Assembly: GCF_017834145.1 (NCBI RefSeq)
Contig: NZ_JAFIDA010000001.1
Location: forward strand, 3,100,001 to 3,164,000
Origin: Leucobacter exalbidus
Lineage (GTDB): Bacteria; Actinomycetota; Actinomycetes; Actinomycetales; Microbacteriaceae
Direction of reading: 5' to 3'
Length of the DNA stretch: 64,000 nt
Shown: in pieces, positions 24,136 to 52,412 of the stretch
How the letters are laid out: each line of letters opens with the position of its first letter
Numbering within the stretch: position 1 is the stretch's first letter
Notes under the pieces: model-generated
The model's database searches: none
Told to the model about the DNA's origin: nothing
What the model saw: only the letters and a program-made list of their open reading frames with translations
Program-made: the position numbers and the translations under genes

Positions 24136-24771
24136 TCACTTCAGTGGCGCGATGCCGTTCCAAATAATGTCGACCGCGGCACGGCACCGCAGCATCGTTT
24201 CGGGATCAGTGAGCTCGGCTCCACGCGCGACCAGCTGGTAATAGAAGACGCCCGAGAGCAGGTCTAAGGTCGCATCGAGGTCGACGCCTGCGCGCACCTC
24301 GCCCCGGTCTTGAGCGCGTTGCAAGAACGCGAGCAGCGGCACTCGCCGTTGCGAGACGTGCCGATTCCAGTACTCGTGCTGTAGATCGGGGTCAGCTAGG
24401 GCAAGCAGCAACCGCTGCCGAACGCGGCTCTCGGGATAGCTTTCGAGCACGGGCCGGTCGGGCCCTGGGTACGCAGACAGAATCGCTTCGCGCGCGGTCA
24501 TCTCGTCGGGTGGGTACACCACTTCACGGCTCACATCGAGGGCATCAGAGATGAGCACATCGAGGGTGCTCCAGCGCCGATAGATGGCCGCGCGGCTCAC
24601 CCCGCTGCGTGCTACCACCTCTTTCACGGTGACGGTGATGCCCGCATCGATGAGGTCGACCACGGTCTGCAGCACCTGTGACTCGAGCGCGGCATCACGG
24701 GGCCGACCGGGGCGGCGCTGGGCCACTCCGGTCGGCTCGCTCTGTGGCTGTGGCAAGTTAGACGCCGGCAC
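24136..24771 (-). CDS. TetR/AcrR family regulator in the phosphonate-type operon
   Basis: A 211-residue repressor. A basic N-terminal region (RRPGRPRD) leads into the helix-turn-helix (ITVTVKEVVARSGVSRAAIYRRW, in part, at about residues 44-67), followed by a TetR_C-type ligand domain. The gene overlaps the upstream phosphatase gene by 14 bases and lacks its own ribosome site, so it is the last gene of the phnD-phnC-phnE operon. It is a good candidate to regulate that operon and perhaps the divergent one. The precise start is uncertain. Confidence 0.85.
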   Translation of the reverse strand: MPASNLPQPQSEPTGVAQRRPGRPRDAALESQVLQTVVDLIDAGITVTVKEVVARSGVSRAAIYRRWSTLDVLISDALDVSREVVYPPDEMTAREAILSAYPGPDRPVLESYPESRVRQRLLLALADPDLQHEYWNRHVSQRRVPLLAFLQRAQDRGEVRAGVDLDATLDLLSGVFYYQLVARGAELTDPETMLRCRAAVDIIWNGIAPLK

Positions 24772-25525
24772 GCTCGTGCAACTGCCCGATCAAGCTGTCG
24801 CTCAGCCCCGCAGATTTCAGCGGTGCGAGCGGGTCGCCGTACTGCGCGCGCAGCGTGGTGAGCGTCACACGCATGGCATCGTCGGCACCGGGCTGCTGCG
24901 TGGCGAGCTTCGCAGCAGCGTCGAGGTCAAAGCCCGCCGCGAGCATCACCCGGCGCAGGTTCGGCCGGGTGCGCTCCATGATGGCCTCGGTATTGGGGTG
25001 TGTGCGCTCGTAGTCGGTGATGATGGCTTCATCTTCGGCGCCGAGAGCGAGCAGCAGCGCGGCCGCCAAGACGCCAGTGCGGTCACGCCCGGCGGCGCAG
25101 TGGAACGCCACCGTTCCCTGGGCGTGCGCCAAGACAGCGAGGGCGGCAACAATCTGCGGGGCAGCTGAAGTGAACAGCGCCGGGTAGAACGCGGTCATAT
25201 TGGGCATGGTGCCGGGTTTCGACTGCGGCGCCTTATTCGAGGAAAGATCTGTCACAAACGGAATGTGATGATAGGTCACCGCATGCTGCTGCAGTGCACC
25301 GCGGCCGGTGGCCTCCACCTCGCCGCGTGAACGCAGGTCGATGACCGCGGTGAGCCCGGCGTCTACCAACTCTTGCGCTGAGGCTGCGGGGATCGTGGTG
25401 AGGTCATCTGCGCGAATCGCAAAACCGTGTGCCACGGTGCCACCGGCGACGGGAATGCCGCCGAGGTCACGCAGGTTGACGGGGGCGCTGAGCTGAATCT
25501 CGTCGGGGGAAAGAGTGATGGTCAT
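24758..25525 (-). CDS. Tyrosine-phosphatase-like (PF13350 type) phosphatase
   Basis: A 255-residue enzyme of the bacterial tyrosine/lipid phosphatase family. The opening APVNLRDLGGIPVAGG and FAIRADDLTTI are family hallmarks. The signature CX5R loop is HCAAGRDRTG with Cys143 and Arg149, and the general-acid region precedes it. It overlaps phnE by four bases (ATGA-type junction) and sits in the transporter operon, so its natural substrate may be an imported organophosphate ester. Related enzymes act on phosphotyrosine or phosphoinositides; which applies here is not visible. Confidence 0.87.
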   Translation of the reverse strand: MTITLSPDEIQLSAPVNLRDLGGIPVAGGTVAHGFAIRADDLTTIPAASAQELVDAGLTAVIDLRSRGEVEATGRGALQQHAVTYHHIPFVTDLSSNKAPQSKPGTMPNMTAFYPALFTSAAPQIVAALAVLAHAQGTVAFHCAAGRDRTGVLAAALLLALGAEDEAIITDYERTHPNTEAIMERTRPNLRRVMLAAGFDLDAAAKLATQQPGADDAMRVTLTTLRAQYGDPLAPLKSAGLSDSLIGQLHERAGV

Positions 25526-26433
25526 GTGATTCTCCGTCTAATAAAGGCGCTTGCCTGGTCAATCACCGTCACGACGACGATGATGCAGATGATGATGGCG
25601 CTCAAGTGGCCGTAGTCGTACATGCGCATAGCTGTGGTGAGTTCGAGGCCGATGCCGCCGGCCCCCACAAGCCCCAGCATGGTGGCGCCGCGCACGCTGC
25701 CTTCGAACAGCAGCAGTGTGTACGACACCAGCAGTGGTGCCGCCTGCGGCAGCACGCCGTACTGGATTGTTTGGCGGTGGGATGCTCCCACCGATTTCAT
25801 GGCGATGATCGGGCCGTCATCTACCGATTCCATGGCCTCTGCGTAGATCTTGCCGATGGAACCTAAGGAGCCCAAGGTCATGGCGAGGATGCCGGCGAAG
25901 GGCCCCAGGCCCACCGCTGACACAAACATCAGCGCGAAGACCAGGTCGGGCACCGCGCGAATCACGTTCATGATCCAGCGGGCCGGGTAATACACCCACT
26001 TCGGGGCGAGGTTTGACGCTGCGGCCATGGCCACAAAGAGTGAGAGCACCGACCCGAGCACGGTGGAGACGATTGCCATCTGCACGGTTTCAACGAGCAG
26101 GCTGACAATCAATCCCAGTTTCGAGAAATCAGGTGGGAAGAGGCGCGACAGGAAGTCGGCCATATTGATGGTGCCCTCGCCGAGCTTCTGGAAGTTGAAT
26201 CCCACGCCCTGAAACGACCACAGCAGAAAGATGACCGCGGCCACGGCGCCCACGAGAAATCTCGTGCGCGGCACCGACACCGCACGTTCGAGCCGTGCGC
26301 GCTCGATGGGGTCGAGCTGTTTCTTCTTGCGGTTCTTCTTCGCGGCCAGGTGTGCGGCCTTGCCCTTCTTCTTTTTCTTCTTTTTGGGCTCGTCGGCTTC
26401 GCTGTGGGCGGGGTGATCAGTGGTCAGTGTCAT
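25522..26433 (-). CDS. phnE: Phosphonate/phosphite-type ABC transporter permease PhnE
   Basis: A 303-residue inner membrane permease with about six membrane segments. The cytoplasmic N-terminus is unusually basic: two lysine-rich clusters (KKKKKKKGKAAHLAAKK, then RKKKQ) within residues 17-40. The permease loop has SIGKIYAEAMESVDDGPIIA, then SVGASHRQTIQYGVLPQAAPL, the EAA-like region that contacts PhnC. The start at 26433 (GGAGAGGAGAACGGCG before ATG) overlaps the end of phnC. Substrate could be a phosphonate, phosphite or phosphate ester. Confidence 0.9.
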   Translation of the reverse strand: MTLTTDHPAHSEADEPKKKKKKKGKAAHLAAKKNRKKKQLDPIERARLERAVSVPRTRFLVGAVAAVIFLLWSFQGVGFNFQKLGEGTINMADFLSRLFPPDFSKLGLIVSLLVETVQMAIVSTVLGSVLSLFVAMAAASNLAPKWVYYPARWIMNVIRAVPDLVFALMFVSAVGLGPFAGILAMTLGSLGSIGKIYAEAMESVDDGPIIAMKSVGASHRQTIQYGVLPQAAPLLVSYTLLLFEGSVRGATMLGLVGAGGIGLELTTAMRMYDYGHLSAIIICIIVVVTVIDQASAFIRRRIT

Positions 26434-27232
26434 CGCCGTTCTCCTCTCCGTCGTACAGCACTTCAAGTTGCGCCGCATCGAGTGTGTTGGTGGGCGCAGA
26501 GACCAGCATTTTGCCGTGTTTCAGACCGACAATGCGGTCGCTGTGGCGCAGCGCCAAGGGCAGCACATGCAAGCTCACGAGCACCGGGATGCCGTCTTCA
26601 TGAGCGATGCTGCGCAGCAGCTCGAGCACCGAATCAGACAGCTTCGGATCGAGCGAGGCCACGGGCTCATCGGCGAGGATGAGCTGCGGGTCTTGCATCA
26701 GCGCCCGCGCGATGGCCACGCGCTGCTGCTGACCGCCGCTCAAGGAGCGCGCCTGATCATTCGCTTTGTGCGCGATGCCCACCCGGTCGAGCAGCTCGAG
26801 CGCGCGTTTGCGCTGAGCCGTGGTGAAGCCGCCCAAGATGTTGAACGGCCCCGAGGAGTGCAGCCCGCCGGTGAGCACATTGGTGAGCACGCTCAGCCGC
26901 CCGATGAGGTTGAACTGCTGAAACACCTGGCCGGTGCGTGCGCGCAGATCTCGAATCTCGCCGCGTTTGAGATTGGTGACGTCGTACCCTGCGACCCGCA
27001 CCGAGCCCTCGGTGATCGGAGCGAATCCGGTGAGGCTCTTCATCAGGGTTGATTTGCCTGACCCCGATGACCCAAGCAACGCCACCATCTCGCCGGGATA
27101 CAGGTCGAGGTTGACACCGTCAAGCACGAGGCCGTCGGTGTCGTTGTACTCCACCGCAAGGCCCTGCACCTGCACTTTGGGAAGCGCCAACCGTAATTCT
27201 TGTGTGGAGGGCGCAATCATGTGGGTCGTCAT
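26417..27232 (-). CDS. phnC: Phosphonate-type ABC transporter ATP-binding protein PhnC
   Basis: The 271-residue ATPase of the importer. Walker A is GSSGSGKST (about residues 53-61), the Q-loop is FQQFNLIGRL, the signature is LSGGQQQRVAIARALMQ and Walker B is LILADEPVASLDP, followed by the H-loop SLHVLPLAL. VFQQFNLIGRLSVLTNVL is typical of PhnC. Its start overlaps the phnD stop by one base (TAATG), and it overlaps phnE at the other end, so the whole transporter is translated in a coupled manner. Confidence 0.93.
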   Translation of the reverse strand: MTTHMIAPSTQELRLALPKVQVQGLAVEYNDTDGLVLDGVNLDLYPGEMVALLGSSGSGKSTLMKSLTGFAPITEGSVRVAGYDVTNLKRGEIRDLRARTGQVFQQFNLIGRLSVLTNVLTGGLHSSGPFNILGGFTTAQRKRALELLDRVGIAHKANDQARSLSGGQQQRVAIARALMQDPQLILADEPVASLDPKLSDSVLELLRSIAHEDGIPVLVSLHVLPLALRHSDRIVGLKHGKMLVSAPTNTLDAAQLEVLYDGEENGDDTDH

Positions 27233-28143
27233 TACTTCAGATCCGAGATATCGACGCCGGCGACGGCGGCAACCTTAACGAGCGAATCAAAGGCATCAGC
27301 ACCCGGCTCAAGAGTGGGCTCGTTGCTCAACATTCCGGTCTCAGCGTAGACTCCCAGCTGGTCAGCGTTGTCTTCGGAGAAGACCTGGGGGAGTGCGTCG
27401 AGCAGTGCGGCGCGTTTCGCGCTGCTGATCTCTTGGCTGGCGATCACGGCCATGCTGACGTCCATGGGGATGCTCTCTCCGATGAACCGTACGTCGCCCT
27501 CTTCGAACGGGAAGTAGTCAGAACCCCACATTGTGGTCAGCATGGTCGCCGTGCAGGCGGCGTCGATCTGCTTTTCTTTCACGGCGACCGCGCTGCGATC
27601 GTGGCCGCCGGTGAACATGGTCTCGTAATCGACGTCACGTTCAAGGCCGACGCTGTCGAGCAGGTGAACGGGCATGAAAAATCCCGAGCTTGACCCGGGG
27701 TCGGCGAACCCGATGGTCTTGCCCTTGAGGTCTTCGACCGACTGAATCGGTGAGTCAGCCAAGACGTAGCACTTGGAGACGGGGTCGGAGGATCCGGGCC
27801 AGGTCATCAGGGCATCGACCTCGCCGGTGTTGACCGCGAGCGCGCTGGGGAACGCGCTCATCAGGGCCATGTCGACGTGGTCGGAGCGCACTGCCTCGAC
27901 GACGCCTAGGTAGTCGGGCGCATCGGTGATCTCCACCTCCATGCCCGTCTTGGCGGTGATGAGCTTGCCGAGTGCCTCGATGGGGTTGACCGCCATCGGA
28001 TCGTCACCCGTGGGGAGGGTCGCAATACGAATCACGTCGTTCTCTGGGCTGTCGGCCTCGGCCGTGCCGCTTGCGCAGCCGGTGAGCGCGATGACGCTGA
28101 CGAGCGAGAGCGCGCTCAGGCTGAGGAGGGTGCGTGTCTTCAT
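27232..28143 (-). CDS. phnD: Phosphonate-type substrate-binding lipoprotein PhnD (system 1)
   Basis: A 303-residue solute-binding lipoprotein that captures the substrate outside the membrane. The lipobox is LTGCAS (Cys about residue 22). Family motifs include APDYLGVVEAVRSDHVDMA, the phosphonate/phosphate loop region KGKTIGFADPGSSSGFFMP and TGGHDRSAVAVKEKQIDAA. The start is the ATG at 28143 or a TTG six bases earlier; GAAAGG spacing does not decide. It is the first gene of the left operon. It differs clearly from the PhnD of the right operon, so the two systems may take different ligands. Confidence 0.92.
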   Translation of the reverse strand: MKTRTLLSLSALSLVSVIALTGCASGTAEADSPENDVIRIATLPTGDDPMAVNPIEALGKLITAKTGMEVEITDAPDYLGVVEAVRSDHVDMALMSAFPSALAVNTGEVDALMTWPGSSDPVSKCYVLADSPIQSVEDLKGKTIGFADPGSSSGFFMPVHLLDSVGLERDVDYETMFTGGHDRSAVAVKEKQIDAACTATMLTTMWGSDYFPFEEGDVRFIGESIPMDVSMAVIASQEISSAKRAALLDALPQVFSEDNADQLGVYAETGMLSNEPTLEPGADAFDSLVKVAAVAGVDISDLK

Positions 28144-28455
28144 GAGCAAGTGTGCCTTTCACAGGTGGGAAACCATTCGTGTATGAGTTAAACCGGCGAA
28201 TGTGTCATCGAATTACGAGAACGTGAGACTCGTATTGAACGGTGTATGAACAGCAGGTGGACCGGGCCGATTGGGGTGCACAGCGTCACTAGGTTTAAAG
28301 ACATAGCGCCAAGGGTTCCGAGGTGTCACCGAGGTGACTCTGTCTGGTCCGAGCCGCGCCGCGCTGGCCTCGGTAGGCCCGCGTCATTCGCCAGGAGAAA
28401 AGCCTGGGGGAGCGCCGCTCGCCGCATCCGAGACCGGTGAGCTGAAGGTCGAGTC
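28144..28455. promoter_or_regulatory. Divergent promoter region between the two phosphonate-type operons
   Basis: About 310 bases without a gene. It must hold both promoters. It contains the inverted repeat TACGAG-N9-CTCGTA (28214-28234), lying between two copies of GTGTATGA (28181-28188 and 28242-28249). No Pho box was recognised with confidence. The lower G+C content near 28170-28250 suits a promoter/operator zone. Confidence 0.5.
28214..28234. promoter_or_regulatory. Putative operator (inverted repeat) for the TetR of the left operon
   Basis: TACGAG and CTCGTA are separated by 9 bases, in the divergent region close to phnD. The dyad length is suitable for a TetR dimer, but the assignment is an inference. 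Confidence 0.4.
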
Positions 28456-29343
28456 ATGTCAACGACAGCATTTGTGCTGGTCTTTGCTGCCGCATTCGCG
28501 CACGCCGCGTGGAACATCATCGCCCACGGGTCGAGCCGCACCGGGTTGCCATTTCTGTGGTGGGGGTCGCTCATCAGCATGCTGATGTGGGTGGGCGTGA
28601 TTCCGTTCACCGGCGGTTTTGGCGCGGCCGACCTGCGGGGGTTTCTCGCCGGCGCGGGGGTCTCTGCGGTGTTGCACGTCGCATACATGTTGGTGCTGCA
28701 GCGCGGCTACACCGTCGGCGACCTCTCGACCGTGTACGCCACCGCGCGCGGTACCGGGCCGATGCTGACCGTGCTGATCGCAGTGTTGTTTCTGGGGGAG
28801 CGGCCGGCACCGCTCGCGCTGCTGGGCGTGGCGGTGCTCGTGTGCGGAATCGTCGCCATCGGATTCATCGGCCGCCCCCTCCACACCGATATGCGCACCC
28901 CCACACGCAAGATCCTCGGCATGGATCCGGGCCTCTTCTATGGGCTCGTGACGGGCGTCGCCATCGCGACCTACACAATCTGGGATACCCATGCGCTGCG
29001 CGAGTGGGGCGCCACCCCGGTGGCCTTCATGGTCGGCTGCCTGGCGCTCGAGATTCCCATCTACACGCTGGTGATCTGGAAGCGTCGCGGCGAACTCATG
29101 CCCACGCTGCGTGAGCAGTGGAAGCGACTCATCGCGTTTGGGTTCTTCTCGCCGCTGTCATACATCTTGGTGCTCACCGCCGTCACGATTGCGCCCGTCT
29201 CGCTCGTGGCCCCCGTGCGCGAGGTGAGCGTGGTGCTCGTGAGCCTGTTTGGGGCGATCGTGTTCAAAGAGCACCGCCCGGTGGCCCGGGTCGCGGCCTC
29301 AGTCGTGGTGGTCGGCGGCGTCGTGCTGCTCAGCATTGGGTGA
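28456..29343 (+). CDS. EamA/DMT-superfamily transporter
   Basis: A 295-residue membrane protein with ten predicted membrane segments in two EamA repeats, the second starting near MDPGLFYGLVTGVAIATYTI. It lacks a signal peptide. DMT proteins usually export amino acids, purines or other metabolites. It is the first gene on the right side of the divergent promoter region, 161 bases ahead of the second phnD, so it may remove a breakdown product such as an amine or act as a second importer. Cotranscription with phnD is possible but not shown. Confidence 0.85.
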   Translation: MSTTAFVLVFAAAFAHAAWNIIAHGSSRTGLPFLWWGSLISMLMWVGVIPFTGGFGAADLRGFLAGAGVSAVLHVAYMLVLQRGYTVGDLSTVYATARGTGPMLTVLIAVLFLGERPAPLALLGVAVLVCGIVAIGFIGRPLHTDMRTPTRKILGMDPGLFYGLVTGVAIATYTIWDTHALREWGATPVAFMVGCLALEIPIYTLVIWKRRGELMPTLREQWKRLIAFGFFSPLSYILVLTAVTIAPVSLVAPVREVSVVLVSLFGAIVFKEHRPVARVAASVVVVGGVVLLSIG

Positions 29344-29504
29344 GCGATGCAGACAACACTCCGGTGATCGCGACACCCACTGTTCAGATAGTTAAGAACC
29401 GGGTGAATAGGCGTTGAACAGCCAACAAAAACGCGACTTTTCGCCCTTTTTGAGTGCAACAGTTGAGCCGGTTCGAAAACCTCCACCCCCTCCGAAAGGA
29501 CATC

Positions 29505-30434
29505 ATGAAGCTCCGTGCACTCAAGACGACCGCAGCTCTCGCGGGCGTCGCACTCCTCGGCCTCGGCCTCGCATCATGCTCAGCCAGCGCAGCAGCAGAT
29601 GGCTCAGCCACTGCGGGCGATGCCGCGGGTTACGCGGTCGATGCAGAAACGCTCGTCTTTGGCGTGGTGCCCGACTCCGTCGACACCGAGACCAACTACC
29701 AGCCGCTGATGGACTACATCGAGCAGGAGTCGGGTAAGACGGTCGAGTACCACGAGTCCACCGACTACGCGGCACTCATCGAGGCTGCGATCGCCGGCAA
29801 GATCGACGTGGCCTCCTTCTCAGGCTTCACGTACGTCACCGCAATGAACAACGGTGCGGCGCTCACCCCGATCTCGTCGATCATGAACGGCCCCGACCAG
29901 GAGCCCGGCTACTACTCAGAAGCCATCGTGCCGGTTGACAGCAAGGTGACGTCGCTCGAAGAGTTCAAGGACCTGAAGGTCTGCTTCGTTGATCCGTCAT
30001 CGACCTCGGGTTACCTGTTCCCGAGCTACAACCTGCTTGAGGCAGGCCTCGACCCCGAGACCGACGTCACCCCGGTGTTCGCCGGTAAGCACGACGTGAG
30101 CGTGCAGAAGGTCGGCGAGGGCGTCGAGTGCGAGGCTGGCTTCGCAGAGGACAGCGAAGTGCTGAAGTCCGACAAGGTGAAGTCGATCCAGCAGACGATG
30201 GTGCCCGGTGCACCCATTGTGATGTCTGACACGCTCCCCGCAGATGTGCAGGAGACGCTCGTGGCCGCCCTCGAAGAGGTCACCATCGACGAAATGATCG
30301 AGTCGGGCATCGACAGCGCCGACAGCGACGCCTTCCGCGCAACGTTCTACGCCACCGAGCCCGTTGACGACGCATACTACGACACCGTGCGCGACATCTG
30401 CGAGAAGACCAACGCTGAGCAGTGCAAGGCGTAA
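29505..30434 (+). CDS. phnD: Phosphonate-type substrate-binding lipoprotein PhnD (system 2)
   Basis: A 309-residue lipoprotein with signal LGLGLASCSAS (lipobox Cys near residue 25). It carries the PhnD fold motifs SVDTETNYQPLMDYIEQE, AAIAGKIDVASFSGFTYV and VCFVDPSSTSGYLFPSYNL, which line the phosphonate pocket. GAAAGGACATC precedes the ATG at 29505. It contains three extra cysteines (for example VGEGVECEAGF and RDICEKTNAEQCKA). It supplies the fused PhnE permease; the downstream oxidase suggests that the ligand is an aminophosphonate. Confidence 0.93.
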   Translation: MKLRALKTTAALAGVALLGLGLASCSASAAADGSATAGDAAGYAVDAETLVFGVVPDSVDTETNYQPLMDYIEQESGKTVEYHESTDYAALIEAAIAGKIDVASFSGFTYVTAMNNGAALTPISSIMNGPDQEPGYYSEAIVPVDSKVTSLEEFKDLKVCFVDPSSTSGYLFPSYNLLEAGLDPETDVTPVFAGKHDVSVQKVGEGVECEAGFAEDSEVLKSDKVKSIQQTMVPGAPIVMSDTLPADVQETLVAALEEVTIDEMIESGIDSADSDAFRATFYATEPVDDAYYDTVRDICEKTNAEQCKA

Positions 30435-30537
30435 CGCAGCACCGCACTCGCGCAGTACCCGCAACATCTGCTGTAACACAGCACCCGCAGTAACGCATTA
30501 AGAAATCTGATTGTCTGGAACCCGAGAGGCCCACATC

Positions 30538-31371
30538 GTGACTCACTCAAATACCGTTCTCCGCGTTGACGGACTAACGAAGCAGTTCGGTGACACCACC
30601 GCGCTCAGCGATGTCTCGCTCAGCGTCGGCACCGGCGAGATCGTGGTGTTGCTGGGACTCTCGGGTTCTGGAAAATCGACCCTGCTGCGCCACATCAATG
30701 GCCTTGAGGAGCCGACCGCTGGTGCGGTTGAGGTACTCGGCCAGGCTGTGCCGCAGTTGTCAGGCCGCAAGCTGCGCGAACTGCGCGGCCGCATCGGCTT
30801 TATTTTTCAGCAGTTCGAGCTCGTGGGCCCGCTCAGCGTGCTCGAAAACGTGCTGAGCGGTTCGCTCGGCACCCTGCGCGGGCCCCGCCTGGGCCTGTTC
30901 AGCTACCCTCGTGACTACAAGCGCCGGGCGCTTGAAAAGCTCGAGCGCGTGGGGCTGCTCGACCGCGCCTACCAGCGCGCCGACACCCTCTCGGGCGGCC
31001 AGCAGCAGCGCGTCGCGATTGCGCGCGCGCTGATGCAGAACCCCGAGGTGCTGCTGGCCGATGAGCCAGTCGCCTCGCTCGACCCCGAGTCAAGCACGCA
31101 GGTGATGTCGCTGATCCGTGAGATCGCGGCCGACGACGGCCTCACCGTCGTGTGCAGCCTGCACCAGGTCGATCTGGCGATCTCGTGGGCCGACCGCATC
31201 GTTGGCCTGCGCCACGGCGAGCTCGTGCTCGACATGCCCGCCGCGGGCCTCAGCAAGGCCGAGGTCATGGAGATCTACGGCCGCGTTGCCACGTCGACCG
31301 CCGAGCTTTCTGCGGTCGAGAACGAGCTGCGCGGCGCGCGGGGCCTCGACATGGCCGAGCTCGTCTCGTGA
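30538..31371 (+). CDS. phnC: Phosphonate-type ABC transporter ATP-binding protein PhnC (system 2)
   Basis: A 277-residue ATPase. Walker A is GLSGSGKSTLLRHINGL, the Q-loop FQQFELVGPLSVLENVL, the signature LSGGQQQRVAIARALMQ and Walker B VLLADEPVASLDP. GTG at 30538 is chosen over a TTG 27 bases upstream because CGAGAGG lies 8 bases before it. The last four bases (GTGA) start the permease gene. The ATPase resembles the PhnC of the left operon but is not a recent duplicate, as sequence between motifs differs throughout. Confidence 0.93.
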   Translation: MTHSNTVLRVDGLTKQFGDTTALSDVSLSVGTGEIVVLLGLSGSGKSTLLRHINGLEEPTAGAVEVLGQAVPQLSGRKLRELRGRIGFIFQQFELVGPLSVLENVLSGSLGTLRGPRLGLFSYPRDYKRRALEKLERVGLLDRAYQRADTLSGGQQQRVAIARALMQNPEVLLADEPVASLDPESSTQVMSLIREIAADDGLTVVCSLHQVDLAISWADRIVGLRHGELVLDMPAAGLSKAEVMEIYGRVATSTAELSAVENELRGARGLDMAELVS

Positions 31372-33068
31372 CGCTGACCGCGGTACCCACCCCGCCCATC
31401 ACCGATCGCGCGCCCAAACGCCAGCGCGACCCGCAGCGCATCGCCGCGGGCATCTCCCTGGGCGTGCTCGTGATCCTCGCGATCGTGGCTTTGATCCGGA
31501 TCGATATCTCCTTCACCAGCATGCTGCAGAGCGGTGAGAACGCGCAGCGATTCTTTGCGCGCGTTGGGGGCCTCGAGTTCCCCGAGCCGATGAAGCTGCT
31601 CGAACTCACCGTGCTCACCGTCGGCCTCGTGCTCACGGGCACCGTGCTCGCGGCCGTGCTGTCGGTGCCCGTCGCATACCTCGCGGCGGCCAACACCTCG
31701 CCCAGCTCGACCTGGCGCGGCATCGCCCGTTTCATCGGCGTCTTCACCCGCGCAGTGCCCGACGTCGTACTCGCGATGGTGTTCGTGCTGCTGTTCTCGC
31801 TCGGCGCGCTGCCCGGTATTCTCGCCATCGGTATCCACTCCATCGGCATGATCTCGAAGATGTTTGCCGACGCGATCGAGCAGATCGACGAGGGCCCCCG
31901 CCTCGCCATTCGCGCCAGCGGCGGGTCAAAAATGCAGGAATTCACGGTCGGCATTCTGCCGCAGGTCGCCCCCTCGTGGGTCGCCACCGTGCTGCACCGC
32001 AACGACATCAACCTGCGAGGATCAGTAATTCTCGGCTACGTCGGCGTCGCAGGCCTCGGCCTCGAAATGTCGTACGCATTCAAGTCGCTGAACTACGGCC
32101 TCGGCCTCGGGATCGCCGTCGTGATCTTCGCGCTGTGCGTGATCATGGAGGTCATCTCGAGCGCGGTGCGCGTGAGCATGCTCGGCGATCAGGCCGGCAA
32201 GGGCGTCTTCGTGAAGCTGTTCTCACGTAACGGTGCCCGCAAGACCGTAGCCCCCGGCACCGCCGTGTACGCCTCGGTTGACGCGGCCATGCACCGGCCG
32301 TGGACCCCGACCCGGGTGCGCAACCTCGGCGCCGCCTGGCTCGCCGTCGCCGCCATTGTGGCGGGCGTCGTGGTGAGCAACATCACCTGGAGCGACTTCT
32401 TCACCTTCTGGGCGAAGGTGCCGCCCGTCGCCGCATCATTCTGGCCGCCGAACTTTGGCAACTACGGCTTCGAAACCATCTTCATCGCGATGGTCGAAAC
32501 CATTGAGATCGCGCTCGCCGCCACCCTCATCACCTTTATCCTGTCGATCGTGATCGGGTCGCTCGCGGCCCGCAACGTGGCCCCGAACGCGGGCACACGC
32601 GGCGGTTTCAGGTTCTTGCTCGTGATCATTCGCGGTATTCCTGAGCTGATCCTCGCGATCGTGCTCATCGTCATCACGGGCCTCGGCGCGCAGGCCGGCA
32701 CCATCGCCCTCGCCATTGGCGGGATCGGGCTGCTGGGCAAGCTCATCGCCGACTCCCTCGAAGAGGTGCCGCGCGGCCCCGAGCGGGCGCTGTCTGCCGC
32801 AGGCGCGAGCCGCATGCAGAAGTTCGCGGGCTCCACTCTGCCGCAGGGCACCCCCGCCCTCGTCGGTCACACCTTCTACATGCTCGACACCAATGTGCGT
32901 GCGGCGACCCTGCTGGGCATCGTTGGCGGCGGCGGCGTCGGCTACTACCTGCTCAACGCAGGCCAGGGATCGAACTACCAGCTGGTGGGCTCGATCGTGA
33001 TCATGATTCTTATCACGGTGCTGCTCGTCGAAGCCCTGTCACTGTGGATGCGAAAGGTACTGCGATGA
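31368..33068 (+). CDS. phnE: Double-domain PhnE permease (two PhnE units in one polypeptide)
   Basis: A 566-residue permease. Two PhnE-type units are joined end to end: the first at about residues 20-270 and the second at about 310-560. Each has about six membrane segments and its own EAA-type loop (SIGMISKMFADAIEQIDEGP and GIGLLGKLIADSLEEVPRGP). Each also has the ILPQVAP / TLPQGTP coupling segment. Most PhnE proteins form homodimers, so the fusion would supply both halves of the channel. GTG start inside the phnC stop; the end overlaps the FAD oxidase start by ATGA. Confidence 0.92.
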   Translation: MTLTAVPTPPITDRAPKRQRDPQRIAAGISLGVLVILAIVALIRIDISFTSMLQSGENAQRFFARVGGLEFPEPMKLLELTVLTVGLVLTGTVLAAVLSVPVAYLAAANTSPSSTWRGIARFIGVFTRAVPDVVLAMVFVLLFSLGALPGILAIGIHSIGMISKMFADAIEQIDEGPRLAIRASGGSKMQEFTVGILPQVAPSWVATVLHRNDINLRGSVILGYVGVAGLGLEMSYAFKSLNYGLGLGIAVVIFALCVIMEVISSAVRVSMLGDQAGKGVFVKLFSRNGARKTVAPGTAVYASVDAAMHRPWTPTRVRNLGAAWLAVAAIVAGVVVSNITWSDFFTFWAKVPPVAASFWPPNFGNYGFETIFIAMVETIEIALAATLITFILSIVIGSLAARNVAPNAGTRGGFRFLLVIIRGIPELILAIVLIVITGLGAQAGTIALAIGGIGLLGKLIADSLEEVPRGPERALSAAGASRMQKFAGSTLPQGTPALVGHTFYMLDTNVRAATLLGIVGGGGVGYYLLNAGQGSNYQLVGSIVIMILITVLLVEALSLWMRKVLR

Positions 33069-34171
33069 GCGCGACAACCTATGACCTCGTAGTAGTGGGC
33101 GGCGGCATCGTCGGCCTGGGCGCAGCATACGCCGCGGTGAAGCGCGGGCAGCGAGTGCTCGTCATCGAGCGCGGTGCTTCTGCCACCGGCGCCAGCATTC
33201 GCAACTTCGGTCACCTGTGCAGCGGCGTACACTCGGGCGACGCCCGCGAGTACGCGCTCGTGGCCCGCGAACTGTGGCTGCAGCTGTCTCGCGACGCCGA
33301 CTTCTGGGTGCGCGAGAGCGGCACCCTGATCGTCGCGCGGCATGCAGACGAACTCGCGCTGCTCGAAGCGGCCGCGAACGAGAGCAGCATCAAGCTGCTT
33401 GACCGTGCCGAAGTGGAGGCCACGTCGCCGGTAGCACCGGGCGTCTCGGTCGGCGGCGGCATCGTTGACCGGGCGCTGCAAACCAACCCGCGCACCGCGC
33501 TGTATGCGATCACGAACCACCTCGCCGCCCTCGGCGTCGAGTTTCAGTTTCGCACCGCCGTCACCCGCGTGCAGACGGGGCTCGTCGAAACCACCCGCGG
33601 CAAGGTATCAACCGCGCAGGTTGTAGTTGCCGTCAACCACGACCTCGACCACCTGTACCCCGAGCTGGCCGAAGAAGCCGGCGTCGAGCGGTGCGCCCTC
33701 GACATGATGCGGGTGCAGGCGACGCTGCGCCACCCGATGAACAACCCCATTCTGACGGGCTGGTCGATGCTGCGCTACCACAGCTTCGCGAAGCGCGACG
33801 AAGCGAAAGCGGTGCGTGAGCGGCTGCACAGCGAACGCCCCGACCTCGCCGCCATCGACATCAACCAGATGTACACGCAGCTGCCCGATGGCAGCCTGCT
33901 CGTGGGCGACACCCACACCCGCGACCTCGTCGCCTCACCGTTTCAGTCGGAGGATGCCCAGCAGGTCATGCTCGACGAAGCACAGGCACTGTTTGGTATC
34001 GAGGCGCCCCGCGTCATCGAACGCTGGCAGGGCGTCTACGCCAGCGCGGGTGGCTCAGGCTTCCTGTCACGCGAGATCGAACCCGGCGTGCGGGCCCTCA
34101 TCGTGACGAGCGGCAACGGTATGACCTGCGGGCTCGGCTTCGCCGAACGAGAACTCCAGCCCATCTTTTAG
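33065..34171 (+). CDS. FAD-dependent amine oxidoreductase of the phosphonate-associated type (TIGR03364-like)
   Basis: A 368-residue DAO-superfamily flavoenzyme. The FAD-binding motif is GGGIVG at residues 12-17, with IERGASATGASIRNFG close behind and the C-terminal FAD segment GNGMTCGLGFAE. The combination RNFGHLCSGVHSGDAREYA is typical of the family that sits next to PhnX-like hydrolases. It probably oxidatively deaminates an imported aminophosphonate to the matching phosphonoaldehyde, releasing ammonia and hydrogen peroxide. Start at ATG 33065, overlapping the permease. The substrate (for example 2-aminoethylphosphonate, an N-methyl derivative or 1-hydroxy-2-aminoethylphosphonate) is inferred from family context. 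Confidence 0.87.
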   Translation: MSATTYDLVVVGGGIVGLGAAYAAVKRGQRVLVIERGASATGASIRNFGHLCSGVHSGDAREYALVARELWLQLSRDADFWVRESGTLIVARHADELALLEAAANESSIKLLDRAEVEATSPVAPGVSVGGGIVDRALQTNPRTALYAITNHLAALGVEFQFRTAVTRVQTGLVETTRGKVSTAQVVVAVNHDLDHLYPELAEEAGVERCALDMMRVQATLRHPMNNPILTGWSMLRYHSFAKRDEAKAVRERLHSERPDLAAIDINQMYTQLPDGSLLVGDTHTRDLVASPFQSEDAQQVMLDEAQALFGIEAPRVIERWQGVYASAGGSGFLSREIEPGVRALIVTSGNGMTCGLGFAERELQPIF

Positions 34172-34177
34172 GCCTTG

Positions 34178-34206
34178 ATCGGGCCCGCCCAGCTGGCGGG
34201 CCCGAT
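34178..34206 (+). terminator. Intra-operon hairpin after the FAD oxidase
   Basis: A 12-bp perfect G+C-rich stem (34178-34189 with 34195-34206) with a CAGCT loop. It lies between the oxidase and the HAD gene, so it may lower or separate expression of the last two genes. No T tract follows. Confidence 0.65.
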
Positions 34207-34271
34207 TCACAGCCGCGTGTGACCGCAACACCCACGATTTTCATACTTTCTTTCGCAGATTAGGACCCCTG

Positions 34272-34997
34272 ATGACCCAGGCATTCGTCTCTCCCATTGA
34301 ACTCGTCGTCTTCGATATGGCCGGCACCACCGTGCTCGATGACGGCATCGTCGAGCAGGCATTCCAGCGCGCCGCCGAGCGCACCGGCGTCGCCGACCGC
34401 ATGCCGTGGGACGAAGCGCTCGGGTATGTGCGCGAAACCATGGGGCGCTCAAAGATTGACGTTTTCACCCACCTCTCGGGCGGCGACGTCGACAAAGCCA
34501 CCGCAGCCAGCCTCGCGTTCGAAGCGGCCTACGCCGAGATCGTGGCCGAGAGCGGCGCCGAAGAAATTCCCGGTGCGGCTGACCTCATCTCAGACCTGCG
34601 CGACTCGGGCCGCAAGGTCGTGCTCACGACCGGGTTCGCCCCGCCCACCCGTGACGCGATCATCGCGTCCCTCGGCTGGGGATCGCTCGTCGACCTCGCC
34701 CTGTCACCCGTTGACGCCGGTCGCGGCCGCCCCGCCCCCGACCTCGTGCTCACCGCACTGCTGCGCACCCAGACCCACTCGGTCGAGCGCGTCGCCGTGT
34801 TCGGCGACACCACGAGCGATGTCGCCTCGGGCCGTCGCGCCGGCGCAGGCCTCGTGGCGGGCGTGCTCACCGGAGCCCACACAGGCGAAGCCCTGATGGA
34901 GGCCGGGGCAGACACCGTGCTCACGAGCATCACCGCCCTGCGCGGCCTGCCCGAGTTCACAGGGCTGCGCGCCGCCCCGGCACTGCAGGCGAGCTAG
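34272..34997 (+). CDS. Phosphonatase-like HAD hydrolase (PhnX-like, TIGR03351 type)
   Basis: A 241-residue HAD enzyme expected to cleave the C-P bond of a phosphonoaldehyde. The nucleophile Asp15 lies in FDMAGTT, where alanine replaces the usual second aspartate, as in phosphonatase. The cap-domain lysine that forms the Schiff base is present (Lys61 in MGRSKID), and motif III has arginine in place of lysine (Arg153 in GRGRPAPD), also as in PhnX. GDTTSDV supplies the metal aspartates. No PhnW transaminase is present; the aldehyde would come from the FAD oxidase. Confidence 0.9.
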   Translation: MTQAFVSPIELVVFDMAGTTVLDDGIVEQAFQRAAERTGVADRMPWDEALGYVRETMGRSKIDVFTHLSGGDVDKATAASLAFEAAYAEIVAESGAEEIPGAADLISDLRDSGRKVVLTTGFAPPTRDAIIASLGWGSLVDLALSPVDAGRGRPAPDLVLTALLRTQTHSVERVAVFGDTTSDVASGRRAGAGLVAGVLTGAHTGEALMEAGADTVLTSITALRGLPEFTGLRAAPALQAS

Positions 34998-35000
34998 ACC

Positions 35001-36362
35001 ATGACCGCCGCTGACCGCGCCGCCACACAGGTCGCCACCGGGCCCGTCACCGTCGCGCCCGGTGACGAGCCGAGCGCCGCCGCAACGCGCACGCCGTGGT
35101 GGCGGCGGCGTGGCCGCGCGGCCAGCGATGCGCCCACCGGGCCCGAAGGCGCGGTCGGCGAAGAAACTGCTGGCACCACCCCGAACGGCGCAGGTGTTGA
35201 ACCCGGCGCCGAGGGCGGCCCTCAGGCGACCGTGATGACGAACCCCGAGGCCGTGTCGATGCTCTTCATGGGCGAGGGAGCACCCCACGAACCCGGCGCC
35301 GTACCCCACGTGGGGCTGCGCGCAGGCGAAGTGCTCGTGCGCATCGAACTCGCCACAGTGTGCGGCTCAGACGTGCACACCGTACTCGGGCACCGCACCG
35401 AACCCACCCCGCTCGTGCTCGGCCACGAAGCCGTTGGCCACGTCGTCACCGTGGGCGGCGGGGGAGCCCGCTACACCGACGGTGGCGCCGTCACCGCGGG
35501 CGACCGCGTGGTGTGGTCGGTGGCCGTGCACTGCGGCAACTGTGACCGCTGCCTGCGCGGAATCCCGCAGAAGTGCCAGACGCTCAAAAAATACGGCCAC
35601 GAACGCATCGAACACGGGTGGGAACTCAGCGGCGGCTTTGCCAGCCACATCCACCTGCTCGCCGGCACCCCGCTCGTGCGGGTCGATGAGCGTGTACCGG
35701 CCCAGGTGCTCGCCCCGGCCGGGTGCGGCATCGCGACCGCGTGGGCAGCGCTCGCCGCGGCCGAACGCACCGTGCCGGTGCACGGCGCACGCGTGCTCAT
35801 CACCGGTGGTGGCCTGATCGGGCTCGCGGCCGCAGCGATGGCGGCCGAGCGCGGGGCACACGTCACCCTCTCAGACCTCGACGCCGAAAGGCGATCGCTG
35901 GCCTACGAGTTTGGGGCGGCGCAGGCACATGATCCGGCGGGAGAGGCCGAGCTCGCCGAAGAGTTCGACATTGCGATCGATGCTTCGGGCGCCCCAGCGG
36001 CGGTCGCCTCGGGGCTCGAAGCCCTGAGCATCGGCGGGGTCGCCGTGTGGGTGGGCAGCGTGTTTCCCACCAAGCCCATCAAGATCGTGCCCGAGCGCGT
36101 CGTGCGCGGCCTGATTACCGTCACCGGGGTGCACAATTACACGCCGGTCGACCTTGAGGGTGCCGTCGCGTTTCTGCACGAACAGTGGCAGCGCTATCCC
36201 TTTGCGGGCCTCGTCGGTGAGACGCTCCCGCTGCACCACCTCGACCTCGCACTCGAGCGCGCGGCCCAGCACCTCGAAGTGCGGGTCGGCATCGACACCC
36301 AGGCGCCCGCCCCGCGCGACCCCGCGCTCGGCACGGCAACCTCGCCCATTCAGACGGCGTAA
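35001..36362 (+). CDS. Zinc-dependent alcohol dehydrogenase of the phosphonate-associated type (TIGR03366-like)
   Basis: A medium-chain dehydrogenase of 453 residues, about 80 longer than usual because of a Gly/Ala/Pro-rich N-terminal region (1-78) that includes WWRRRGR. If translation starts at the ATG of residue 79 (35235) the enzyme has normal length. Catalytic zinc ligands are Cys121 (VCGSD) and His142-Glu143 (GHE); structural zinc cysteines are 178, 181, 184 and 192. The NAD(P) motif is GGGLIGLA. It follows the HAD gene by 3 bases. It may reduce or oxidise the aldehyde released after C-P cleavage. Confidence 0.88.
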   Translation: MTAADRAATQVATGPVTVAPGDEPSAAATRTPWWRRRGRAASDAPTGPEGAVGEETAGTTPNGAGVEPGAEGGPQATVMTNPEAVSMLFMGEGAPHEPGAVPHVGLRAGEVLVRIELATVCGSDVHTVLGHRTEPTPLVLGHEAVGHVVTVGGGGARYTDGGAVTAGDRVVWSVAVHCGNCDRCLRGIPQKCQTLKKYGHERIEHGWELSGGFASHIHLLAGTPLVRVDERVPAQVLAPAGCGIATAWAALAAAERTVPVHGARVLITGGGLIGLAAAAMAAERGAHVTLSDLDAERRSLAYEFGAAQAHDPAGEAELAEEFDIAIDASGAPAAVASGLEALSIGGVAVWVGSVFPTKPIKIVPERVVRGLITVTGVHNYTPVDLEGAVAFLHEQWQRYPFAGLVGETLPLHHLDLALERAAQHLEVRVGIDTQAPAPRDPALGTATSPIQTA

Positions 36363-36388: not shown

Positions 36389-36418
36389 CGGCCGGTTCAC
36401 TCAGGTGAGCCGGCCGCG
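36389..36418. terminator. Hairpin between the dehydrogenase and the convergent DUF6498 gene
   Basis: A 13-bp stem (36389-36401 with 36406-36418, one G-T pair) and a 4-base loop. It overlaps the last codons of the minus-strand gene. Confidence 0.65.
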
Positions 36419-37089
36419 GTGGTGGTGCGCGTAGCCGGCGGGCGAGACGGTTGACCCGCACGCTTCGCCGTGAGCAGCTGCCCCACGTCAACACCAAACT
36501 GGAGCGCGACGAGCAGCAGCGCCGCGACGGGTGGCCAGCCGAAGTAGTTGATTAACCAGACCCCCAGCAAAATCGTCACGTGCAACACGAAGATGCGCGG
36601 GTAGGGCGCCCAAAACAGTTGCATCACCGGCGGCAGATTCGCCCGCGGTGTGAAACAGCCGATCACGAGCTGCACCAGCGAAGCGAGCGCCCAGTACAGC
36701 ACAATGCCGCGCAGATCGAAGGCGCCCTGCGGCGCCGCGCCCCCGGGCCCCGCGAACAGCGACGAGAACACCCCCAACACGATGAGCATCACAAAGACGC
36801 CGTGCACGAGCGTGAATAAGCCATAGTGCACCGCAAAGAATAGCATCGCGAAGGGCTTGGGCATCGCGCCTGACGACTGCCGGCCGTTCACCGTAAACGT
36901 GACCCCGCCCGCCACACTCGCCGCGGGCTGGGTCTTCGTGCGAAACATGTCGAGCTCGGCACGCGCGCCCGCCGTGATGTTCTGCAACCAATACAGCACC
37001 AGCACCGAACGCCAATCCCAGTCGAAGAACACAATGCCCACCACCGGGATCAGCAGATACACCACAGCGGACAGCGCGCGTTCAATCAC
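36397..37089 (-). CDS. DUF6498-type integral membrane protein
   Basis: A membrane protein of about 230 residues with about six hydrophobic segments. Recognisable parts are VVGIVFFDWDWRSVLVLYWLQN, in which WDW/YWLQN is typical, then FFAVHYGLFTLVHGVFV and the C-terminal LLVALQFGVDV. The open frame continues to 37194; the start at GTG 37089 fits the beginning of the conserved region but has no strong ribosome site. Function unknown. It is divergent from pheS, and the upstream part of the longer frame would overlap the pheS promoter, which argues for the shorter form. Confidence 0.75.
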   Translation of the reverse strand: MIERALSAVVYLLIPVVGIVFFDWDWRSVLVLYWLQNITAGARAELDMFRTKTQPAASVAGGVTFTVNGRQSSGAMPKPFAMLFFAVHYGLFTLVHGVFVMLIVLGVFSSLFAGPGGAAPQGAFDLRGIVLYWALASLVQLVIGCFTPRANLPPVMQLFWAPYPRIFVLHVTILLGVWLINYFGWPPVAALLLVALQFGVDVGQLLTAKRAGQPSRPPATRTTTAAGSPE

Positions 37090-37198
37090 CTCACCATCGT
37101 AGGTGCCACACGCCGCCCAGCACGCGCTTTCTTTCGTGCCGACACGCAGCAGCTGCACCCTGCGCACCAGATCGCCGCCGCGGCTCAGCCACACAGAG

Positions 37199-51501: not shown

Positions 51502-52412
51502 TGCTGTACGCACAGACCACCGCTGAGGCGAAGCGTCGCCTCTTCCGCGAGCGCCTCGCCACTGGCGAGCTGCTGCGGTTCCCGGGCGCATTCAACCCGC
51601 TGTCTGCCCGCTTGATCGAGCAGAAGGGCTTCGAGGGCGTCTACATCTCGGGCGCCGTGCTGTCGGCCGACCTGGGCCTGCCCGACATTGGGCTCACCAC
51701 CCTCACCGAGGTTGCCGGCCGTGGCAAGCAGATCGCTCGCATGACCGATCTGCCCGCGATCATCGACGCCGACACCGGCTTCGGTGAGCCGATGAACGTG
51801 GCGCGCACCATTCAGGAGCTCGAAGATGCGGGCCTCGCCGGCGCGCACATCGAAGACCAGGTGAACCCCAAGCGTTGCGGCCACCTCGACGGCAAATCGG
51901 TCGTTGACGAAGCGACTGCGCTGAAGCGTATTCGCGCAGGTGTTGACGCACGTCGTGACTCGAACTTCTTGATCATGGCGCGCACCGACATTCGTGCCAC
52001 CGAGCCTGGCGACTCGGGCCTCGCCCTCGCGGCAGACCGCGCGAAGGCACTGGTTGACGCCGGTGCCGACGCGATCTTCCCCGAGGCGATGCGCACGCTT
52101 GAGGAGTTCGAAGCGATTCGCAAAGCCGTTGACGTGCCGATCCTCGCGAACATGACCGAGTTTGGCAAGAGCGAGCTCTTCTCGAGCGAGCAGCTGGCCA
52201 GCGTCGGTGTGAACATCGTGATCTGGCCCGTGTCGATGCTGCGTATCTCGATGGGCGCCACTGGTCGCGCACTCGACGAGCTCAACAATGTGGGGCACCT
52301 CACGGGCAAGCTGGGGGAGATGCAGCACCGCGCTGACCTCTACGAGCTGCTCGACTACGAGTCCTACAACAGCTTCGACACGAACGTGTTTAATTTCGAG
52401 GTGGAGCGCTAA
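51501..52412 (+). CDS. prpB: 2-Methylisocitrate lyase PrpB
   Basis: Cleaves 2-methylisocitrate to pyruvate and succinate with Mg2+. The 303 residues include the metal and substrate-site segments VYISGAVLSADLGLPD and IDADTGFGEPMN, and the catalytic cysteine motif NPKRCGHLDGK. It overlaps prpD by one base and is followed by a hairpin (52431-52473) before prpC. Confidence 0.96.
   Translation: MLYAQTTAEAKRRLFRERLATGELLRFPGAFNPLSARLIEQKGFEGVYISGAVLSADLGLPDIGLTTLTEVAGRGKQIARMTDLPAIIDADTGFGEPMNVARTIQELEDAGLAGAHIEDQVNPKRCGHLDGKSVVDEATALKRIRAGVDARRDSNFLIMARTDIRATEPGDSGLALAADRAKALVDAGADAIFPEAMRTLEEFEAIRKAVDVPILANMTEFGKSELFSSEQLASVGVNIVIWPVSMLRISMGATGRALDELNNVGHLTGKLGEMQHRADLYELLDYESYNSFDTNVFNFEVER

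Follow-up and report, generated by a model that had tools for sequence, protein, structure and literature searches.

In a 64,000-nucleotide stretch of the Leucobacter exalbidus genome (contig NZ_JAFIDA010000001.1, positions 3,100,001 to 3,164,000; hereafter the window), we analyzed two neighbouring operons that each encode a PhnCDE-type importer. The genome (3.18 Mb, one contig, 99.93% complete) belongs to the family Microbacteriaceae. We consider it probable that the right operon encodes a phosphate-starvation-controlled, PhnW-free oxidative aminoethylphosphonate (AEP) pathway, and that the left operon is a separate unit with which it shares only a predicted control by PhoP. As a gene set, the right operon is genuine and recurrent, a variant of the oxidative AEP route. 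Most of its chemistry has precedents in other bacteria, and the enzyme cutting the carbon–phosphorus (C-P) bond and the dehydrogenase belong to families, TIGR03351 and TIGR03366, for which our literature searches found no assay; these two enzymes make the pathway question directly testable.

The three catabolic genes of the right operon adjoin one another, and their products scored above the curated cut-offs of TIGR03364 (flavin adenine dinucleotide (FAD)-dependent oxidase), TIGR03351 (PhnX-like HAD hydrolase) and TIGR03366 (zinc dehydrogenase), in agreement with a preliminary description of this DNA. PhnC and PhnE of both importers were above cut-off and both binding proteins matched TIGR01098, so that each set is a PhnCDE importer with a PhnD-type binding protein. 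The absence of PhnW transaminase and C-P lyase genes, noted earlier from the letters of the block, was borne out by a profile search of the whole genome: the best match to PhnW reached 31.5 bits (cut-off 400.8), PhnJ had no match while the Escherichia coli control was positive, and nothing exceeded the cut-offs for PhnX and PhnA. The right operon is thus a complete set for import and catabolism without PhnW or C-P lyase, as had been claimed. Both binding proteins missed the stricter PhnD equivalog TIGR03431 (110.9 and 138.6 bits; cut-off 261.1). The nearest solved relative of the right PhnD was PtxB, and those of the left PhnD were PtxB and PhnD. Binding-protein sequence was dropped as a guide to the ligand, as the nearest solved structures for both proteins were PtxB, PhnD and other oxyanion binders.

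In the proposed pathway, the PhnD-C-EE importer would take up the phosphonate, and the oxidase, of PbfD type, would use O2 to turn N-methyl-AEP and/or AEP into phosphonoacetaldehyde, releasing H2O2 and either methylamine or ammonia. The TIGR03351 hydrolase would then split phosphonoacetaldehyde into acetaldehyde and phosphate, with Asp15 as the nucleophile and Lys61 as the Schiff-base residue, and so would do the job of PhnX without being PhnX; the zinc dehydrogenase would be an optional accessory. For the oxidase step, the preliminary description had left the substrate to be settled, a view now outdated at the level of the family: phosphonoacetaldehyde is the product that PbfD1 (annotated as TIGR03364) and PbfD2 form from N-methyl-AEP and AEP by oxidation, and PbfD2 is argued to stand in for PhnW (PMC10590968, 2023). 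The same reaction, demonstrated for these other family members, is inferred by analogy for the window protein. When the window oxidase was aligned with 13 relatives, one of them from Acinetobacter baumannii, 30 columns proved invariant. The window gene adjoins TIGR03351, a PhnX-like HAD, rather than PhnX itself. Five proteobacterial oxidase genes (L136, L138, L140, L141 and L156) had no PhnX or TIGR03351 match within their 7-kb flanks.

A comparison of gene neighbourhoods in related genomes, which had been suggested as a check, was run and showed that the right operon recurs in Microbacteriaceae. Among 249 genomes of the family, TIGR03364 was above cut-off in 68 (69 at E 1e-60), TIGR03351 in at least 55, and TIGR03366 in 41 (51 at E 1e-60). 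Of the 69 oxidase genomes, 68 matched TIGR03351 with 113 bits or more, and in the 69th (G106) a partial, 65-bit match lay between the genes for the oxidase and the dehydrogenase. Distances were counted on 83 hydrolase places at 113 bits or more plus the G106 match, added by hand; 64 of the 72 oxidase places, G106 counted and G210 counted twice for identical places on two contigs, lay within 10 kb of a hydrolase. We then compared 80 TIGR03351 loci, among the matches listed, down to 96 bits, leaving out a short contig (G176:C395), the G210:C16 copies and second gene pieces. Thirty-one were of the window type, combining a fused-PhnE importer with the oxidase; two lacked that importer but had the oxidase and dehydrogenase, 28 were other oxidase loci and 19 had no oxidase nearby. 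The importer at the oxidase loci of the family (n = 60) was of PhnCDE type in 33, of PhnSTU type in 23 and neither in 4, and a TIGR03351 hydrolase was found at all 23 PhnSTU-type loci. Outside the window type, PhnSTU-type importers predominated, as on the annotated Tsukamurella plasmid described below. An EamA gene occurred in 14 of the 31 window-type loci. A GntR match also occurred in 14 of the 31, and stood beside phnD in the nearest cassettes of the same genus (L079, L090). GntR was tried as the regulator of the right operon and set aside: none was found in the window, and the closest relative in the rest of the genome was 40% identical.

A 2021 review, judging by C-P lyase genes, placed whole phosphonate-degradation sets only in three Arthrobacter and a few Streptomyces species (PMC7866108). 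With the oxidase in 69 of the 249 sampled Microbacteriaceae genomes, a route other than C-P lyase may be common in this family. The PbfD authors remarked on PbfD homologues, mostly cyanobacterial, that lie outside phnWX/phnWYA clusters (PMC10590968), and TIGR03351-type neighbours such as the one here would explain some of them.

Phosphate control was evaluated by scoring upstream regions for two GTTCACC-type units, which we take to be the PHO-box consensus letters, lying 11 nt apart (maximum score 14), against dinucleotide shuffles as the background. Scores of at least 11 were found in 28 of 32 upstream regions of right-type phnD genes and 12 of 15 of left-type ones, the window being in both sets, versus 5.8% and 7.3% of shuffles; scores of at least 12 were found in 22 of 32 and 6 of 15, versus about 1%. 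Of random stretches of equal length from the window, 0.1% reached the score of 12 seen upstream of its right phnD gene. Two putative 11-nt direct repeats, as expected for a member of the Pho regulon, were thus found upstream. The strand of the repeat was mixed in the right set and uniform in all 15 of the left. Upstream of the other genes, scores of at least 11 were found for 0 of 35 dehydrogenases, 5 of 14 EamA genes, 30 of 61 oxidases and 32 of 80 hydrolases, the last two of which may be promoters of divergent cassettes. PHO boxes consist of 11-nt direct repeats (PMC7866108), and on these sequence data both operons are predicted to share PhoP control rather than one pathway.

The TIGR03351 hydrolase and the product of the oxidase

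The window hydrolase fell far below the cut-off of the PhnX profile TIGR01422 (70.5 and 62 bits; cut-off 220), and its Asp15 and Lys61 align with the nucleophile Asp12 and the Schiff-base Lys53 of PhnX. Across 110 TIGR03351 partners, numbered on Bacillus cereus PhnX, Asp12 was present in all 110, and Lys53 (exception L125), Arg160 and Asp186 in 109 each. Three TIGR03351 paralogues of one Microbacteriaceae genus (g57; L082, L098 and L101), which have no oxidase nearby, carry Ala in place of the catalytic Asp (ALAGT); their reading frames are open in three species, and they are possibly pseudoenzymes.

We then placed the hydrolase partners on a tree of 100 oxidases, comprising 30 of the 61 family oxidases (L109, below 300 bits, was left out), the window and 69 other loci, drawn from Microbacteriaceae, named genomes (best 80 of 95) and plasmids (5 of 28 matches). 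It is a quick tree, with branch support from the SH-like approximate likelihood-ratio test only and with L116 on a very long branch. Partners were classed by custom profiles, which left a wide gap between the groups, and NCBIfam agreed for five of the five partners checked. The neighbouring hydrolase was TIGR03351 in 80 cases and PhnX in 8, and in 12 none was found within the stretch examined. At least four changes between PhnX and TIGR03351 were needed on the tree, which suggests that one and the same product of the oxidase is the substrate of both hydrolases. From the residues and the partner swaps, the TIGR03351 hydrolase probably does the job of PhnX.

Several points weigh against this assignment and against the pathway as a whole. 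The PhnDCE system of Mycobacterium smegmatis transports phosphate, not phosphonate (PMC7866108). For the enzymes of this branch, we found no published assay. The window oxidase shares only about 24% identity with the aligned protein from A. baumannii, which may or may not be PbfD1. His56 of PhnX, present in 8 of 9 PhnX rows including the B. cereus reference, is replaced by Val in the window hydrolase and by Ala or Val in 108 of the 110 TIGR03351 partners, so that a related aldehyde could be the substrate. Four of the partners checked, which are from outside Actinobacteria (two cyanobacteria, Dyadobacter and Stenotrophomonas), scored 151 to 211 bits, under the TIGR03351 cut-off. The AlphaFold2 model of the window hydrolase (predicted local distance difference test score (pLDDT) 93.8) is similar in fold not only to PhnX but also to several HAD phosphatases, and the phosphatase AlnB scored higher (Z 26.7) than PhnX (Z 23.4); fold was therefore rejected as proof of phosphonatase function. 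A loose PHO-box pattern gave three sites in the whole window, versus 1.42 expected, and 16 of 100 shuffles gave as many, although all three sites lie in the two promoter regions.

The replaced His56 also bears on the identity of the substrate. In an alternative scheme, the substrate would be 1-hydroxy-2-aminoethylphosphonate (HAEP) or its N-methyl form; the oxidase would yield hydroxy-phosphonoacetaldehyde, the hydrolase glycolaldehyde, and the dehydrogenase would reduce or oxidise the latter; the glycolaldehyde step belongs to the old family description. HAEP was proposed in the TIGR03364 description quoted in PMC10590968, a dehydrogenase is at hand in the operon, and the hydrolase pocket differs from that of PhnX at His56 and mostly at Tyr128 (Phe in 86 of 110 partners). 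Four partner changes on the oxidase tree would be hard to explain if the two hydrolases received different products, and the dehydrogenase family is found about 3 kb from a canonical PhnX in two Planctomycetes. Moreover, none of the 26 oxidase loci with a PhnSTU-type importer had the dehydrogenase, including the 23 of Microbacteriaceae with their TIGR03351 hydrolase, and the PbfD enzymes assayed act on N-methyl-AEP and AEP (PMC10590968). We therefore regard HAEP as an improbable substrate and prefer the AEP pathway.

The role of the zinc dehydrogenase

Residues C43, H64, E65, C100, C103, C106 and C114, which we take to be the zinc ligands, are conserved in TIGR03366. The structure predicted for the window dehydrogenase is that of an ordinary zinc alcohol dehydrogenase (AlphaFold2 pLDDT 90.1), with Thermotoga maritima TM0436 (1vj0) as the closest solved structure (Z 46.5, root-mean-square deviation 1.6 over 350). 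Arg54 and His300 are invariant, and Arg54 aligns with the Trp of the 'HGDW' loop in solved alcohol dehydrogenases. As both positions presumably line the substrate pocket, an anionic substrate is suggested.

The dehydrogenase is optional in oxidase cassettes. It was found at 30 of 40 oxidase loci with a PhnCDE-type importer, at none of 26 with a PhnSTU-type importer and at 8 of 63 with neither importer found; the Fisher p-value for this association ignores relatedness and is indicative only. In the family, 38 of 53 dehydrogenase places had a TIGR03351 gene within 10 kb, and 15 had neither oxidase nor hydrolase within that distance; 10 places, all among these 15, were in genomes without an oxidase. 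When only the 43 places above cut-off were counted, 29 were near an oxidase and 9 near neither gene. An obligatory partnership of dehydrogenase and hydrolase was rejected on account of the 15 lone places. Ten of them were inspected (L267-L276), and PurL, PurQ or PurC was nearby in six; L272 had only an esterase and a major facilitator superfamily (MFS) gene, and L269, L270 and L275 had no pur, esterase or MFS genes.

The dehydrogenase could dispose of the acetaldehyde that the hydrolase would produce, as its position at the end of the operon, behind the hydrolase gene, and the 38 places close to TIGR03351 would suggest. It is missing at the PhnSTU-type loci, where the same acetaldehyde would arise, and occurs in ten places in genomes without an oxidase; the putative pocket residues Arg54 and His300 also point to an anionic substrate instead. 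In Mycolicibacterium houstonense (L122, L262), furthermore, about 1.4 Mb separate a GntR-PhnD-PhnC-PhnE-E-dehydrogenase run from the pair of oxidase and hydrolase genes. We regard acetaldehyde disposal as a rather doubtful explanation.

Another explanation would be a second entrance into the pathway. In Streptomyces avicenniae, a TIGR03351 hydrolase, PhnD, PhnC, a fused PhnE and the dehydrogenase follow one another on one strand (L263 6958-12921), with no oxidase in the run. The hydrolase is above cut-off (224.5 bits) and has the nucleophile and lysine motifs. A PhnM-like protein is encoded past an opposite-strand GntR gene downstream of the dehydrogenase, and about 9 kb away begins an oxidase cassette that has a hydrolase and PhnDCE of its own. 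To turn a hydroxyphosphonate into phosphonoacetaldehyde and split it, a cell would need such a set of importer, dehydrogenase and hydrolase, with no oxidase. The presence of the hydrolase in this operon, one operon in one genome, makes the wider proposal below slightly less improbable. The same run, holding hydrolase and dehydrogenase together, is compatible with acetaldehyde disposal too. In the proposal as a whole, TIGR03351 would be a second widespread family of phosphonoacetaldehyde hydrolases, serving a PhnW-free and C-P-lyase-free aminophosphonate pathway in Actinobacteria, Cyanobacteria and Bacteroidota, and TIGR03366 would open a second entrance by oxidising an imported hydroxyphosphonate such as 2-hydroxyethylphosphonate to phosphonoacetaldehyde; we hold the proposal to be unlikely. 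If it is true, the Streptomyces operon, lacking an oxidase of its own, would represent the second-entrance route alone. PbfC and PbfD enzymes leave 2-hydroxyethylphosphonate unoxidised (PMC10590968), and its conversion to phosphonoacetaldehyde by a dehydrogenase was considered for PbfF and not borne out (PMC12366243).

The left module

A search for the left-type PhnD in 248 genomes was followed by comparison of the 14 best other loci, whose copies of this protein had identities between 36% (L243) and about 80%. The gene order PhnD, PhnC, PhnE, phosphatase was kept in all 14, and a TetR gene was in the matching position in 13 (none was seen in L230). No oxidase or hydrolase stood beside the left module in any of them. 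Upstream of the module, L230, L231 and L233 have a zinc dehydrogenase that is about 31% identical and was taken as an unrelated family member. Conversely, the left set was found in none of the 80 hydrolase loci; L059, L073 and L074 contain another PhnDCE, with a PhnD 27% identical, and L109 a phosphatase 34% identical. Three genomes have both modules but apart, on different contigs in G096 and G164 and about 2.5 Mb from each other by coordinates in G106. Because the left module is kept without oxidase or hydrolase elsewhere and the two lie apart in these three genomes, it seems to be a separate conserved module, and the window seems to show two independent units side by side.

The preliminary description had instead united both importers and all the enzymes in one self-contained pathway, in which the left importer would bring a second substrate to the same catabolic set. 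The modules do adjoin and diverge, and both have PHO-box-like repeats. The three comparisons above (14 of 14 left loci without oxidase or hydrolase, none of 80 hydrolase loci with the left set, and both modules apart in three genomes) make a single pathway very unlikely, and this part of the description is not supported.

The left operon might serve high-affinity scavenging of phosphate or phosphate esters, with the Y_phosphatase3 protein freeing phosphate. The phosphate-carrying PhnDCE of M. smegmatis (PMC7866108), the phosphatase in 14 of 14 left loci, with oxidase and hydrolase in none, and the PHO-box-like repeats upstream all favour this role. By sequence, in contrast, the left PhnD is closest to the phosphite and phosphonate binders PtxB and PhnD, no signal peptide was seen by eye in the phosphatase, and C-P lyase genes were sought in the window genome only, not in the 14 left loci. 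We rate phosphate scavenging as a reasonable candidate, at somewhat less than an even chance. Judged by title or abstract, no paper on a phnDCE-phosphatase-TetR operon was found in our literature search.

Gene layout and comparison with known systems

The features of the two operons are listed below. The preliminary description had both importers diverge from one 310-bp region. This is true of the left phnD gene, which borders it; the region (28150-28455) ends at the EamA gene, and the right phnD starts only at 29505, behind a second gap of 161 bp (29344-29504). The EamA transporter and the phosphatase reported for the block were recovered through PF00892 and PF13350 matches. By sequence, the EamA protein is a distant relative of the phosphonate-associated family TIGR03340. 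The left-module phosphatase has an HCAAGRDRT signature (by eye), and the oxidase starts with the ATG at 33065, in an ATGA overlap with the stop codon of phnE-E. Beyond the right operon, a DUF6498 membrane protein (36397-37194, minus strand) sits between the zinc dehydrogenase and pheS. A protein of the isocitrate lyase/phosphoenolpyruvate mutase superfamily (51546-52280, plus strand) scored 121.1 bits against TIGR02320 (cut-off 319.55) and is probably not a phosphonate biosynthesis gene.

Table 1. Features of the left module and the right operon, in window coordinates
Feature	Coordinates	Strand	Evidence
TetR-type regulator, terminal gene of left module	24136..24771	-	PF16859 55.2 bits; PF00440 24.5
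Y_phosphatase3 (dual-specificity/protein tyrosine phosphatase type), left module	24758..25525	-	PF13350 155.6 bits
PhnE permease, left module	25522..26478	-	TIGR01097 282.5 bits, cut-off 216.7
PhnC ATPase, left module	26417..27232	-	TIGR02315 272.9 bits, cut-off 266.1
PhnD-type binding lipoprotein, left module	27232..28149	-	TIGR01098 142.3 bits, cut-off 112.05
PHO-box-like 11-nt direct repeats, upstream of left module	28234..28262	-	GTCCACC-N4-GTTCATA-N4-GTTCAAT
EamA/drug-metabolite transporter (DMT) membrane protein	28456..29343	+	PF00892; TIGR03340 110.2 bits, below cut-off 288.15
PHO-box-like direct repeats, upstream of right phnD	29402..29419	-	GTTCAAC-N4-ATTCACC, score 12/14
PhnD-type binding lipoprotein, right operon	29505..30434	+	TIGR01098 156.4 bits, cut-off 112.05
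PhnC ATPase, right operon	30538..31371	+	TIGR02315 300.7 bits, cut-off 266.1; start 30511 or 30538, uncertain
Fused PhnE-PhnE permease, right operon	31368..33068	+	TIGR01097 417.4 bits, two stretches; cut-off 216.7
FAD-dependent aminophosphonate oxidase, TIGR03364/PbfD type (predicted)	33065..34171	+	370.5 bits, cut-off 285.1
Phosphonatase-like HAD hydrolase TIGR03351	34272..34997	+	223.4 bits, cut-off 218.9
Zn-dependent alcohol dehydrogenase TIGR03366	35001..36362	+	387.3 bits, cut-off 328.1; conserved part from ~35235

Among known systems, the PbfD2-PhnX pair of Mariniblastus fucicola (PMC10590968) is alike in that an oxidase replaces PhnW, phosphonoacetaldehyde is made and a HAD hydrolase frees phosphate. 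The window differs from it in having TIGR03351 without His56, a zinc dehydrogenase and a PhnDCEE importer. The NCBIfam set of TIGR03364, TIGR03351 and TIGR03366, three families whose names already link them to phosphonates, is present in full in the window, above cut-off and adjoining, whereas the HAEP substrate proposed for TIGR03364 is disfavoured by the evidence given here. The HpnW-PhnX-PhnSTU operon of Achromobacter (PMC11203657) likewise has a TIGR03364 oxidase instead of PhnW near a C-P hydrolase and an importer; its own features are a canonical PhnX, PhnSTU, a LysR regulator and induction by glyphosate, and the oxidase was not assayed there. A cassette with a 2-AEP importer on the Tsukamurella plasmid NZ_LR134449.1 has the oxidase and hydrolase families in common with the window and carries a GntR regulator, but the 2-AEP-type importer replaces PhnDCE and the stretch examined contains no zinc dehydrogenase. 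The phnFDCE operon of M. smegmatis (PMC7866108) is also an actinobacterial PhnDCE importer responding to phosphate limitation; it carries phosphate, and it is closer to the left module than to the right operon.

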